The notes below the pieces were generated by a model. It was not told the origin of the DNA and searched no databases. It saw nothing but the letters and a program-made list of their open reading frames with translations. Positions 18,042-22,267 of a stretch of 23,366 nucleotides of DNA are shown piece by piece. The stretch is from a virus: IMG/VR virus record IMGVR_UViG_3300033153_002450, positions 1 through 23,366 of that record; one strand, 5' to 3'. Positions within the stretch are counted from its first letter, which is position 1. Each line of letters begins with the position of its first letter. A program made the position numbers and the translations under genes.

Positions 18042-19356
18042 TTTAATACCTCCAATAATTCTGATTGAACAACATCTTTCTTAGCTAATGCTGTCATCAG
18101 GTCGTGTTCAATATCTCCCACAGCAATGTGCATGGCTCGTACTTTTTGAGTCTGCCCTTGTCGGTCATACAATGAGCGAACCTCCATCTTGTAAATTAAG
18201 CCCATGCCCAGCAGAAGCTGGGTGGGCAAGTAGTAGTTTAATTTCACCCTTGTTCCAACGTCCAACGGCTTCACCATTTTTGTCAAGCACAGTTGCGTCA
18301 GGGAAGTTATCTGTAAGAGCCTTAAGTTCGTGTTTATAATTGTAGGCGACCAATATATTATCGTTGGGATTCTCATCTATAATCTCCTTCAAGGTATCTA
18401 TTTTTAAATCATGGAAGTGATGCACTGTACCATTTTCATCGTACATGTTGCCACTACAGAACTGTAAGAGTTTGTTGGTTAAAGTTGCCGCAGATAAAGC
18501 AGTGATTTTCTCATCTTTGTTTACTGCTAATATCATATCGTTTTTAAACTTCAGATACTTGCGTAACAACTCTCCCTCAAGCTCGTTGCCAAGTACAGAC
18601 GGTATGAAGTCAGGAAGCTCAAGATAGTCCTCTGAGGACATCGACAATACTAAGTCTTGTATTGAGTCCTGTATCATCTTAACAGCACCGTCACGAAGCG
18701 TGTACGTCCACCCCATGAAGTCTTTGTCAAAGTATCTAGTCCTAAACATCGTTTGCGTTCTACCCAATCTAAATCCACCGTCAAGCAAAAAGAACTGAGA
18801 GTATAAATCCCCGTATCCATTGCTTGCGGGAGTTCCAGTTAGTAAAACCATGCGACTTATTAAAGGACTAACTTTCTTAAGAGCTTTGAAACGCTGTGAT
18901 GAGGGGGATTTGAACGAAGAACTTTCATCAATAACAACCATATCAAAAGCCCATTTCTTACCAAGATGCAAGACAAGGGCTTTGATGTTTTCTCTATTGA
19001 TGATATAGATGTCGGCTTTACGCTGTAGTCCAACCATCATCTTAGCTTTTCCACCAGCTAAATTAGAGAAAGTTAAGTCTTTAGTATGCTCCCACTTCTT
19101 AGCTTCTTGCATCCATACCGTGTTGCAAACACGAAGAGGGGCGATAATCAATACTTTGTTCACACTAAAGCTATCGTACATCAGGTCTTCTATACCAGTA
19201 AGAGTTGAGACTGTTTTGCCAAGGTCAAAGTCCCATATCTAAAAATAAAGCAGATTTAGGTATCGTTAAGATATGCTCAACGGCTCTCTCTTGATACTTA
19301 TGCAACTGCTCCTTTTTTAGAATGGGACGACCTCCTTGTGTTAAATTTTTACTCAT
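18038..19356 (-). pseudogene. SNF2-family helicase locus, split over three frames
   Basis: SNF2-type helicases use ATP to move along duplex DNA; phages carry compact ones beside replication genes. ATG 19356 (GGAGG ahead) begins MSKNLTQGGRPILKKEQLHK and runs to SALFLDMGL, then TGA at 19227. One base later the frame continues as DLGKTVSTLTGIEDLMYD with motif Ia (LIIAPLRVCNTVW), motif II VVIDESSSFK, motif III LTGTPASNG and motif V HPASAGHGLNLQ, ending at TGA 18167. The third frame supplies DRQGQTQKVRAMHIAVG and the C-terminal helix to 18038. At the second break the usual 15-20 residues between motif V and the RQGQ of motif VI are missing. Family: certain. Whether the locus is dead, assembled from mixed strains, or partly rescued by frameshifting is open; a pseudogene is most likely. 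Confidence 0.75.
19224..19230 (-). other. CUU UGA C heptamer at the helicase frame change
   Basis: On the minus strand the last sense codon of the first helicase frame is CTT, followed by stop TGA and then C. This equals the +1 frameshift site of the prfB (release factor 2) gene. A +1 shift there leads to GAC CTT GGC AAA ACA, the frame that encodes the ATP-binding GKT. A strong Shine-Dalgarno element at the spacing used in prfB is not seen; only ATGGGA directly precedes. Confidence 0.45.
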
Positions 19357-19357
19357 A

Positions 19358-19846
19358 TTATTTTCCTCCATGATTTTCGTGAAAACCATATTTAATTTCA
19401 GCGTCTTTCCTAGCTGAAATAGCATCTGTCTTATCTGTAAAAGAACCTAACCATATCACTTTACCGTTAACTTTAATTTGAGAACCCCACTTATTCAACC
19501 TAGAAATACGATAAACCCCGATAGTTCCTGATGTATTTCTATCTGTAAGTTTTTGATTTCTACGGTTATCTTGTCGTGTTACCAAACGCAAATTAACTAA
19601 TCTATTATCATCTCGTTCGTGGTTAATATGGTCTATCTCCATCCCGTCAGGTATTTCGTTGTTATACATAATCCATATTAGTCTGTGAACCATATATAAC
19701 TTACCAGTTATTTGGACTTGATAATAACCTGAATGATGTTTAGAACCAACCTCAACACCTTTCAATGCTCTTGGATTACGATTGTATTTATTATACAACT
19801 TGCCTTTTTTATATTCAAACATCTCTGTAAGTGTTTCGCTATTCAT
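19358..19846 (-). CDS. HNH homing-type endonuclease with AP2 domain
   Basis: A 162-residue mobile endonuclease. The HNH core lies at residues 52-97: MVHRLIW (His54), EIDHINHERDDN (Asp72, His73), RLVNLRLVT (Asn85) and DNRRNQ. An AP2-like DNA-binding domain follows at 106-157 (SGTIGVYRI, KWGSQIKVNGKVIWLGSF, KDAEIKYG). This layout is typical of free-standing or intron-borne phage homing endonucleases. It lies inside the helicase locus, between two copies of the helicase N-terminus. It has its own sigma-70 promoter, AAAGGAT before the ATG, and its last codons (GGA GGA AAA TAA) provide the ribosome site of the helicase start one base later. These features mark it as an inserted cassette adapted to keep the downstream gene translated. 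Confidence 0.92.
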   Translation of the reverse strand: MNSETLTEMFEYKKGKLYNKYNRNPRALKGVEVGSKHHSGYYQVQITGKLYMVHRLIWIMYNNEIPDGMEIDHINHERDDNRLVNLRLVTRQDNRRNQKLTDRNTSGTIGVYRISRLNKWGSQIKVNGKVIWLGSFTDKTDAISARKDAEIKYGFHENHGGK

Positions 19847-19968
19847 ACAATATCCTTTTCTAGTATTGTACTATATCCTTGTCCATTTGTCAACGCACTC
19901 TTTGGAATATCTAATATGTGTTTAACCGCTCGGTGTTGATATTTATGTAATTGATTTTTTCTTAACAT
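19843..19968 (-). pseudogene. Truncated second copy of the helicase N-terminus
   Basis: This 41-codon frame (GGAG before ATG 19968) begins with 25 residues that match the helicase start after the HNH gene at about 20 of 25 positions: LRKNQLHKYQHRAVKHILDI against LKKEQLHKYQERAVEHILTI, then both PKSAL. The DNA is far more different than the protein, especially at third codon positions, so this is not a recent tandem duplication but a diverged allele. Homology stops at SAL, where the codons GCG TTG ACA begin the HNH promoter; the remaining 15 residues are the promoter region read as protein. The end overlaps the HNH start (ATGA). It is best read as the remains of the helicase gene that the HNH cassette entered. 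Confidence 0.72.
19865..19893 (-). promoter_or_regulatory. Near-consensus sigma-70 promoter of the HNH gene
   Basis: On the minus strand, -35 TTGACA (19893-19888), a 17-base spacer and -10 TACAAT (19870-19865) stand in front of AAAGGAT and the HNH ATG at 19846. This is one base from the full consensus with ideal spacing. Start of transcription is expected near 19858. Confidence 0.75.
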
Positions 19969-20158
19969 GTTTATACTCCAAATCCCTATAGTTTTGTTTC
20001 TTAGGTTTATATAAAGGTGGAAGTTTCGTAAGCTCATCTGTGCACATAACAACATAACCTCTATGGTACAGTTTACCGTCCTTCTCAACGATAGATTTAT
20101 CTTCTAAACCCACATCTATCATCCACTGAGGGAAGATTAGATAGTTATCTTTACTCAT
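19943..20158 (-). CDS. 71-residue hypothetical protein
   Basis: The ATG overlaps the upstream stop (ATGA). The protein is mixed alpha/beta with the phrases IFPQWMIDVGLEDKSI, EKDGKLYHRGYVVM and a proline and lysine-rich end (LPPLYKPKKQ). The last codons overlap the truncated helicase copy by 26 bases and hold its ribosome site. No family is recognised; the basic C-terminus may bind nucleic acid. Confidence 0.6.
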   Translation of the reverse strand: MSKDNYLIFPQWMIDVGLEDKSIVEKDGKLYHRGYVVMCTDELTKLPPLYKPKKQNYRDLEYKHVKKKSIT

Positions 20159-20478
20159 CTTCTATTCCTTGATACTTTAACATTTCGTAATTTCTTTAGG
20201 GCTATTTTATCGCACTTACATGTTTCAGGGTTCATGTATAAATATATGGTAGCTGTGCATTCAACCCACCATCCTCTTTGTACTTTTTCTAAATTCTTCT
20301 TGCTTAGAGGCAACCACATGTGATGTCTTTCACATCTTCCGTCAATTAAACAATGGGTGAATAAAGCTCTAGGATAGCCAAATCTTGTGTCGGCCATCCT
20401 TATTTGCTCCAACTTACCACTGAAAGCAACTTTCATGGGTCTCTTCATTAGGTCTTTATTGTTGTAGCTAAAGCTCAT
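20155..20478 (-). CDS. Hypothetical protein, possible OB-fold
   Basis: A 107-residue basic protein. ATG 20478 was chosen because TAGGAG lies six bases before it; a reading two codons longer would use TTG inside that site. It contains MKVAFSGKLEQIRM, a segment FTHCLIDGRCERHHMWLPLS, then VQRGWWVECTATIYLYMNPE and a basic tail. The alternation of strands with a central GWWVECTATIYLY reminds me of small OB-fold-like proteins encoded near phage polymerases, but this is not a secure match. It overlaps the end of the DNA polymerase gene by 11 bases, suggesting coupled expression and a replication accessory role. Confidence 0.6.
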   Translation of the reverse strand: MSFSYNNKDLMKRPMKVAFSGKLEQIRMADTRFGYPRALFTHCLIDGRCERHHMWLPLSKKNLEKVQRGWWVECTATIYLYMNPETCKCDKIALKKLRNVKVSRNRR

Positions 20479-22267
20479 AATCAACTCCTAAGTCTTTTAG
20501 TTTTGATTTAGCTTCATCGTAGTACCATTCGTAATCTAAATCTTCAGGTACATTATCAGTTAAATTCATCATTGGTTTAACACCTCTACCTTCACCTGTT
20601 TTAGGTACAAGGTTTCCATTATTGCTGTAATTTATAGTGTCGCCTTGCGTTGAATAATACCAACGCACCATTTTACCAAGGTACTCACCTTTCCAAACAC
20701 CGCCACTCTTAACTGTTCTAGCAGATACAAATTGATTTACATCAAGACAATTCCTAATAGTTAATGCTAAATGCGTACCGTCAAGTAAATATTTTCTAAT
20801 AGCTTCATAAACTATTGGTGTACTTCGACCCTTACTTAATGTTGTCTCAGCGTAGATGCCTTTTGATTTAACATACCCGTCATAAACAGCAACGTAGTTA
20901 TTTACATCTTTTGCATGCAAAGCTTGATACTCACCGTGTTCCATTTCAAAACCAGTTAGAAGCTCTAAGTCAAACACCAAAGTCTCAGCCAAGTCAATCT
21001 TATCACGAGGACAAAAATACTCAAGACCGTCTGTGTTAGCAGATACAACTGGAATATCGTGTGACTCCATTTGCTCTATGAGCATCAACAGCGTCAGTTG
21101 GCCGGTAATTGTTGTAGCCAATAACATGTTCGGAGAATATAGTTTAGAATATTTTGAACCAAACTTACCAAACGACCCATTAATTGTAATCTTAAGTGAG
21201 TCAGCTACAAGTTTGTTGCCCTCAGCTTTTGCCTTAAGTCTAGTTTGAACAATCTTATTATAAACATACAAGAACTTCTTACCAAGATGTTTAGGATAAA
21301 GTTTTTGATTGAGAATAATAAATGGATAGTATGAAGCAAAGTCAGCATTACGCATGACATTGTTCTCATCACTTACAACACTGATAGACTTCTCTTGTGA
21401 GTGCAATCCACCAATACCCATTTTGTATGTTGTGTTCCCAAGAATGATTTTATGATTAGCTAAAATCTTTGGCATCTTTACAGCACCGTTAGAAGCTATA
21501 TCAAAGTCAATGTCTTCTAACATCTCAACCAGTTCGTTAAGTTTTTTATCTTTAAACTTAATATAATCAGGTGCTTGGTAATGTGCTTTAAACCCATGAG
21601 GTAACTCAGGCTTTCTAGCATTAACACCTAACTTCTTTAATTCAGAAGTAATAACAGTCTCAGCTATTTGTGCATCTGACTTACTTCTAAGGTCAAGTCC
21701 ATATTGCTCACCCATAGATACACGCAACTCTATGCGGTCTTCAATTACTCTATATAAATCAACTGTGACATCAACATCGTTCTCACAATATGCGATTAAC
21801 TTGTCTTTCTCATGTTCAGTAATCGGCATGTGTGGGTCAAGATAAAACTCTTGCAACTTCTTTGAGCCAACACGAGTACCATAATTTTTAAGTGAAATCA
21901 TTACCGCTGGGGATGGCTCCATAACATCAAAATGGTCATAAGGTCTTGGGTCAATACCTAAGTTACGATAGGTCATCCAATCAGGTTGACGTTTATCTAT
22001 GATGTTTTTAGAGTTCTCATATAACTCTTGACATGTTGCACCGCTTAGTGCGTAATTAATTTGAGGCATGTCATAGTTGCTTGAGTTGAAACCAAACGAC
22101 GTGTATCGAGAAAGCATGTGATTTAACTTACTTCTTTGCTCTCTAGTTAATTTAGTACCAGCCCCGTACATATCCATTTTTAAATATTTACCACTGGTTA
22201 AACCTTTGATAACAATAAGAAAGTAGTTGGGGAGAACTTCTATATCGAGACAGATTAACTTATTCAT
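20468..22267 (-). CDS. DNA polymerase, family B, with 3'-5' exonuclease
   Basis: The replicative polymerase. In 599 residues the exonuclease motifs are CLDIE (Exo I, Asp8/Glu10), FGFNSSNYD (Exo II, Asn61-Asp66) and YCENDV (Exo III, Tyr160-Asp164). They are followed by MGIGGLHS (the YxGG-type link, about 283-290), motif A DFASYYPFIILN (309-320), motif B KITINGSFGKFG (359-370) and motif C SANTDGLEYF (409-418). Motif C reads NTDG instead of the usual DTDS: the first Asp is replaced by Asn while Asp413 remains. The same variant is known to me from other phage family B polymerases, so it is probably active. It is short for the family and no long terminal-protein insertion is obvious, so protein priming is not indicated. 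AAGGA precedes ATG 22267. Confidence 0.95.
   Translation of the reverse strand: MNKLICLDIEVLPNYFLIVIKGLTSGKYLKMDMYGAGTKLTREQRSKLNHMLSRYTSFGFNSSNYDMPQINYALSGATCQELYENSKNIIDKRQPDWMTYRNLGIDPRPYDHFDVMEPSPAVMISLKNYGTRVGSKKLQEFYLDPHMPITEHEKDKLIAYCENDVDVTVDLYRVIEDRIELRVSMGEQYGLDLRSKSDAQIAETVITSELKKLGVNARKPELPHGFKAHYQAPDYIKFKDKKLNELVEMLEDIDFDIASNGAVKMPKILANHKIILGNTTYKMGIGGLHSQEKSISVVSDENNVMRNADFASYYPFIILNQKLYPKHLGKKFLYVYNKIVQTRLKAKAEGNKLVADSLKITINGSFGKFGSKYSKLYSPNMLLATTITGQLTLLMLIEQMESHDIPVVSANTDGLEYFCPRDKIDLAETLVFDLELLTGFEMEHGEYQALHAKDVNNYVAVYDGYVKSKGIYAETTLSKGRSTPIVYEAIRKYLLDGTHLALTIRNCLDVNQFVSARTVKSGGVWKGEYLGKMVRWYYSTQGDTINYSNNGNLVPKTGEGRGVKPMMNLTDNVPEDLDYEWYYDEAKSKLKDLGVDYEL

Follow-up and report, generated by a model that had tools for sequence, protein, structure and literature searches.

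An HNH cassette in a phage helicase gene

The window analyzed here, the whole of a 23,366-base IMG/VR virus record (IMGVR_UViG_3300033153_002450), carries on its minus strand a locus at which a gene for an SNF2-type DNA helicase is broken up by an HNH endonuclease gene. A first-pass annotation had placed the HNH gene between two diverged copies of the helicase N-terminus, and translation of the minus strand bears this out, with copy 1 at 19968-19891, the HNH gene at 19846-19358, and copy 2 beginning at 19356. That reading had overlooked a stop-containing insert in the Walker A motif, a 53-nucleotide (nt) deletion farther along the gene, and a promoter-like sequence. The Walker A stop insert is what makes the locus unusual, and many other phages have such an insert, whether or not they carry an HNH gene. 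The features are as follows (L numbers denote the loci compared).

19891..19968, minus strand: helicase N-terminus copy 1 (displaced stump), MLRKNQLHKYQHRAVKHILDIPKSAL, from translation; the uninterrupted N-terminus of L007 is closest (82% nt identity)
19865..19893, minus strand: promoter-like TTGACA-17-TACAAT at the left cassette end, immediately ahead of the HNH gene, 11 of 12 consensus positions, common to L095
19358..19846, minus strand: HNH endonuclease gene, 162 amino acids (Pfam HNH_3, E 3.4e-18; phrog_99, E 1.2e-58)
19352..19372, minus strand: GGAGG ribosome-binding sequence within the final HNH codons, then the new helicase ATG (from sequence)
19228..19356, minus strand: helicase N-terminus copy 2, 43 codons; its first residues, M(S/N)KN(L/S)(T/I)QGGRPIL, are specific to the cassette and common to L016 and L095
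19228..19230, minus strand: proposed take-off codon CTT, Leu of DMGL (sequence and insert catalogue)
19224..19227, minus strand: TGAC, a stop codon plus one base, identical in L016, L095, and L257
19221..19223, minus strand: proposed landing codon CTT, after which coding resumes with GGC AAA ACA (GKT) (sequence and insert catalogue)
18165..19220, minus strand: SNF2-type helicase body in the +1 frame, GKTVSTLTG to GSLIV and then a stop (SNF2-rel_dom, E 1.1e-14; phrog_62 DNA helicase, E 7.8e-99)
18165..18166, minus strand: junction of the 53-nt deletion, WYGFTWSLELYQQFNARL lost and the frame shifted; absent from L016 and L095
18038..18164, minus strand: rest of the helicase C-terminus in a third frame, to LLEVLK (translation; phrog_11354)
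20468-22267, minus strand: DNA polymerase gene, upstream of the helicase locus and followed by two small genes

Copy 1 begins at 19968 and loses its helicase-like reading after SAL at 19891. Copy 2, from the ATG at 19356, reads MSKNLTQGGRP-ILKKEQLHKYQERAVEHILTIPKSALFLDMGL, in which MSKNLTQGGRP is an 11-residue extension and the remainder is a near-copy of copy 1. The claimed agreement between the residues of the two copies is there and is far above chance (20 of 26 by eye, 18 of 21 over the best-aligned residues), and third positions have indeed diverged widely, with 7 of 21 matching and 66% of all bases identical. The proposal that the end of the HNH gene supplies the ribosome site also holds, in that GGAGG lies inside the last HNH codons directly before the ATG. 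Promoter-like sites are no more numerous in this region than expected by chance, so that a function for TTGACA-17-TACAAT is only putative.

What did not survive is the claim that copy 2 leads into the rest of the helicase, because a TGA (19227-19225) in Walker A ends copy 2 and the body follows from 19220 in the +1 frame. The Walker A DNA of the window reads GAT ATG GGA CTT TGA C CTT GGC AAA ACA; the 7-nt insert TGACCTT (19227-19221) brings a stop codon and a frame shift into the motif, which accounts for the frame of the 351-codon body. A 53-nt deletion at 18166/18165 (region 18182-18152) then takes out WYGFTWSLELYQQFNARL, in the motif V-VI region, so that the C-terminus, up to 18038, is encoded in a different frame again. 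Neither L016 nor L095 has the deletion. Given the deletion, the window helicase may be dead, inactive, or misassembled; the argument made here rests on the relatives of the window.

The same order of stump, HNH gene, and new start M(S/N)KN-QGGRPIL is found in two diverged contigs, IMGVR_UViG_3300003177_000011 (L016/L096) and IMGVR_UViG_3300011126_000039 (L095), in agreement with the earlier suggestion that an HNH cassette near the ATP-binding loop arrived with a second N-terminus and left the old one as a stump. The HNH genes of these contigs are 77 and 81% identical, the same CTTTGACCT insert is present in both, and the remainder of the helicase gene is intact there. Cassette and 7-nt insert are common to the three diverged contigs (GGRCTTTGACCTWGG). 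The HNH-less relatives L002, L003, L004, L006, and L007 have a single N-terminus and no insert, with the motif written GAY ATG GGN YTN GGN AAR (nearly so in L006, which has GAA); L005, also HNH-less, has a different stop insert at the same Walker A place. No HNH-less relative among L002-L007 carries both N-terminal copies, so the arrangement that would have counted against the first-pass annotation was not encountered. The HNH gene is sporadic at this locus (present in the window, L016, and L095; absent from L002, L003, L004, L006, and L007), and by this comparison the 7-nt insert is part of the cassette. The left cassette junction falls at about helicase codons 26, 22, and 10 in the three phages, as expected if the stump erodes freely.

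Whether copy 2 came from a related phage, as the first-pass annotation supposed, has an answer that differs between contigs. The 21-codon N-terminal segments are too short for trees and were compared by an identity matrix. The idea fits the window, in which copy 1 is nearest to L007 (82% nt identity) and the best match of copy 2 is the N-terminus that accompanies the cassette in L016 (74%); it does not carry over to L016, where stump and copy 2 are 90% identical and the second copy is therefore local in part or for the most part.

Some further observations concern the neighborhood. In L016 the HNH open reading frame (ORF; L016:2403-2963) is in frame with the helicase stump, and a single 187-residue protein of N-terminus plus HNH is possible. 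In L095 a second HNH gene (phrog_374, 1012-1662) interrupts the DNA polymerase gene (L095:100-2431) immediately ahead of the NGSFGKFG motif, and a new start with a leader precedes the second half. Gene content between polymerase and helicase (window 20155-20484) changes from relative to relative, with a Dam-like methylase in L002 and other genes in L003 and L005.

A recurrent class of Walker A stop inserts

Pattern scans and the resulting catalogue assembled 43 distinct helicase loci, and L084, L488, and L489 bring the class to 46. Clustered by body identity, the 43 catalogue loci form 26 groups at a 70% threshold and nine at 50%, distant DEMG-type helicases included. One layout is seen throughout: a Gly or Leu codon belonging to the motif, followed at once by a stop, zero to three further bases, a codon for the same amino acid, and the remainder of the motif, so that skipping from the first codon to the second yields D/E-M-G-L-G-K-T. 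The length skipped in the catalogue is 6 nt (15 loci), 7 nt (15), 8 nt (eight), or 9 nt (five), which covers all three frame classes, and the stop is TGA in 20 loci, TAA in 16, and TAG in seven. With L488 and L489 (+5) and L084 (+2), in which the landing codon overlaps the stop or its neighbors, the class spans 2-9 extra bases. Insert length can differ even between close relatives, as in L087 (+6, TAG GGC) and L421 (+7, TGAG GGC), whose bodies differ by a nonsynonymous rate (dN) of 0.064; a fixed frameshift or stop readthrough cannot accommodate such variation, whereas a hop, its gap length free to vary, can.

Two named complete phage genomes carry the insert, namely Paenibacillus phage Pd_22F (L488), with an HNH gene directly upstream, and Fusobacterium phage phiPaco (L489). 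Because of the Walker A stop, their helicases are annotated in GenBank as truncated or as two genes (the latter in phiPaco). A search of phages with L443 DNA gave no match.

Since many of the loci had come from patterns that demand a stop, a scan without this requirement was run, and all 20 of the distinct genuine helicases that it returned have a stop directly after the take-off codon; its remaining matches were uninterrupted helicases in another frame or were not helicases. For Leu-type loci, where the landing codon was left unconstrained, GGN AAR is immediately preceded by a Leu codon in eight of eight (six from the pattern, plus the window and L095, which were identified independently of it). 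Among 167 helicase loci found by protein similarity alone, internal interruptions were five, and all five lie in the Walker A motif (frame breaks in L016 and L084, in-frame stops in L005, L083, and L087); three other stops are at gene ends. Beyond helicases, a scan of genome contigs with GGNCTTTGACCTNGGNAARAC gave 28 matches, and the only three to pass an open-frame filter (L383, L392, and L394) look like chance.

Rates of substitution show purifying selection on both sides of the insert. The ratio of dN to the synonymous rate (dS) in the body is 0.035-0.11 in the L083/L087 family where dS is measurable (L423 and L475, for example, differ by a dN of 0.022 and a dS of 0.52), and 0.135 between the window and L095; the short N-terminus is conserved as well.

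One candidate, L471, was removed from the class on finding an uninterrupted IWADMGLGKT in another frame. Sequencing error can be dismissed, as three independent contigs agree on the 7 nt and two complete named genomes contain members of the class. So can an alternative code in which TGA specifies an amino acid, as TAA and TAG are used too and most inserts change the frame or vary in length.

Association with HNH genes and apparent inteins

To survey HNH genes, the ORFs in the 1.5 kb upstream of the motif were compared for 38 insert and 99 uninterrupted loci. Eleven ORFs among the insert loci matched HNH_3, and at the uninterrupted ones none matched an HNH family at E < 3e-4 (Fisher p about 2e-7, or 2e-6 with near-duplicates removed). 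Ten HNH-bearing insert loci can be named: the window, L016, L095, L087, L423, L474, L452, L488, L409, and L480. The region upstream of L448 contains NUMOD4. The upstream HNH genes fall in different families (phrog_99, phrog_59, and phrog_15471), and the association is therefore not one inherited block.

Intein-like inserts are seen in two of these helicases. Mesorhizobium phage Cp1R7A-A1 (L515) has a related helicase whose Walker A motif seems to hold an intein, the sequence before TVSAIG ending in VTHN, and L425 combines a Walker A stop insert with an apparent intein in motif VI (CILKDSLVF...VHN-CHRIGQ). These helicases thus look like targets of other homing elements too.

Predicted RNA hairpins at the proposed take-off codon

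In a folding z-score survey of the 43 insert loci, nine have a stable hairpin in which the motif's GAYATGGG or GAGATGGG (the DMG/DEMG codons) forms the 3' arm and ends at the take-off codon (L479, L005, L305, L425, L335, L338, L257, L459, and L434; z -2.3 to -9.3). Values below -5 occur in five of the 43 insert loci vs. none of 123 uninterrupted ones, and three uninterrupted DEMG-type helicases lack the hairpin. No such hairpin was detected in the window family or in the L083/L087 family, and it therefore cannot be essential. In L083, L087, and their relatives, a GGCC upstream in the LGL codons can pair with the GGCC at the landing codon and so enclose take-off codon and stop; L440 is without this pairing.

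Interpretation and rival explanations

We consider it quite likely that the locus is a homing-endonuclease cassette in the phage helicase gene, made up of the HNH gene, a replacement 5' end, and the Walker A insert CTT-TGAC-CTT, with the insert crossed by stop-hopping. Helicase genes without an HNH gene would be cut by the HNH enzyme in the conserved Walker A DNA or close to it. Repair would then bring in the cassette together with some of the helicase sequence beside it, the old N-terminus would be left behind as a stump, and the Walker A insert would destroy the cleavage site in the carrier. A ribosome at the take-off codon would meet the stop, and its peptidyl-tRNA would slip forward and re-pair with the synonymous landing codon ahead of GKT, so that DMGLGKT would be made intact. 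More generally, the Walker A codons of phage SNF2-type helicases are probably a recurrent site of natural “micro-bypass” elements, stop inserts of 2-9 nt that are hopped between synonymous Gly or Leu codons and that spread, or were selected, as immunity scars against upstream HNH homing endonucleases. The architecture, its recurrence, the stop-plus-landing layout, the selection on both coding parts, and the HNH association are what we observe, and it is from these that we infer the hop, the cleavage site, the immunity, and the homing.

Several points weigh against this interpretation. Translation, cleavage, and homing are all deduced from sequence. Most insert loci have no HNH gene within 1.5 kb, and these would need a past loss of the HNH gene or selection by the endonucleases of competitors; moreover, the uninterrupted loci in the HNH comparison are mostly of the DMG type, and the insert set spans more families. 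The majority of Gly-type catalogue loci came from patterns that demanded both a stop and a Gly landing codon, and the control sets are smaller. In phiPaco the landing triplet is AGA, which is not a Gly codon; it is the sole imperfect landing codon. The hairpin comparison is partly confounded by helicase type, and DEMG controls are few. No strong 5' hairpin accounts for an efficient hop in the window family, and stop-hops in synthetic constructs are generally inefficient. Selection on the helicase copy of the window itself is doubtful, given the 53-nt deletion.

The alternative that survives best, although we regard it as unlikely, is an RF2-type +1 frameshift in the window family, by which the ribosome would slip at CUU UGA C and read GAC, giving a product DMGL-DL-GKT with two extra residues in the P-loop. 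CTT TGA C is the classical prfB shift site. The window, L016, L095, and L257, in all of which the frame would be restored by a +1 shift, have it unchanged, although the codon after it may be CTT, CTA, or CTC. Such a shift cannot serve the loci with +6, +8, or +9, in L338 (CTT TGA CTA) it would meet TAG at once, and the second G of the P-loop GLGKT would be lost. Nor is there a Shine-Dalgarno-like element 3 nt before CUU; in ATATGGGACTTTGAC, GGGA touches CUU and no AGGGGG lies at 3 nt.

Still less probable is that endonuclease cleavage and end joining left the inserts as loss-of-function scars, in helicases that are dead or dying. The location does coincide with a likely homing target, the insert of L488 is a 5-nt tandem duplication, and the window has its 53-nt deletion as well; yet the stop directly follows the take-off codon in every unselected case, strong purifying selection acts on both halves across large divergence, other lesions are absent from the 167 helicases, and the insert is present in two complete named phage genomes. 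That the stop separates two proteins, with termination, a downstream restart, and the N-terminus and body as separate products, is very unlikely. GenBank does place the helicase start after or at the motif in Pd_22F and phiPaco, but in the window and L095 no in-frame start follows the stop until past GKT, the ATG of the window ORF is absent in L095, and a restart gives no reason for keeping the landing codon, the GKT, and the N-terminus. Finally, a group I intron or intein that spans the HNH gene and is spliced out is scarcely credible, even though HNH genes often reside in such elements and an intein-like sequence sits at the same motif in Mesorhizobium phage Cp1R7A-A1: 18000-20500 has no Rfam match at E up to 1, and so no recognizable group I catalytic core; the left junction is at a different place in each of the three phages; the stop of copy 2 would remain after splicing; and stops separate the HNH ORF from copy 2, which is in another frame, leaving an intein no continuous reading frame.

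If stop-hopping at Walker A is correct, these loci would be the first large natural set of stop-hops, and the 46 loci, varying in length, stop, and hairpin, could serve as a natural mutational series for the mechanism of bypassing. Recoding as immunity to homing endonucleases would have arisen repeatedly at a single motif, and phage helicases now listed as truncated or split would in many cases probably be whole.

Comparison with known systems

Nearly all that is known of programmed ribosomal bypassing in bacteria and phages comes from gene 60 of phage T4, and natural in-frame stop-hops were unknown as of a 2016 review (PMC5009743). Our literature search, which covered open-access papers only, found no report of helicase stop-hops. 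In T4, a homing endonuclease split gene 39, and the bypassed 50-nt insert of gene 60 is thought to protect against the nuclease (PMC5009743; PMC2988022). As with T4 mobA and gene 60, an HNH homing gene here splits a replication gene whose downstream part has its own start; a stop-containing insert lies within the first 50 codons, arranged as take-off codon, stop, and a landing codon that matches; protection from cleavage is the role proposed for the insert; and the endonuclease gene adjoins the insert-bearing gene (in the window, L016, L095, L087, L423, L452, L488, and others). The gene 60 stem-loop sits just 5' of the take-off site (PMC5009743). The hairpin of the helicase loci recalls it; that hairpin is strong in nine loci and missing from the window family. 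The helicase inserts differ from the T4 system in size (2-9 nt rather than 50), in their place (the Walker A motif of a helicase rather than a topoisomerase), and in being many, independent, and of varied length. The HNH gene is not always present, the window family has a duplicated N-terminus, and the helicase hop is a proposal made from sequence.

The stop-hops of Weiss et al. 1987 were synthetic, with no natural in-frame case known (reviewed in PMC5009743), and L284 has exactly one of their configurations, CTG TGA CTG. The RF2 (prfB) +1 site CUU UGA C is matched by an identical heptamer in the window family, which lacks the Shine-Dalgarno element spaced at 3 nt, and other loci use other stops and lengths. 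The byps of Magnusiomyces capitatus mitochondria (PMC5009743) are likewise short inserts, skipped by ribosomes in many genes, for which a mobile origin has been proposed; they differ in being read by mitochondrial ribosomes, in having an unused A-site codon rather than a stop, in being longer, and in not being confined to one motif.

The replacement of a gene end has its own parallel in fungal mitochondrial DNA, where mobile endonuclease ORFs come with replacement ends for atp6 in Allomyces and for atp6, atp9, cox2, and nad3 in Glomus (PMC3630166). Those ends are C-terminal, the enzymes are of the LAGLIDADG or GIY-YIG type, and no recoding site is involved, but in both cases an endonuclease gene brings with it a diverged gene end that displaces the resident one, and the two copies differ mostly synonymously.
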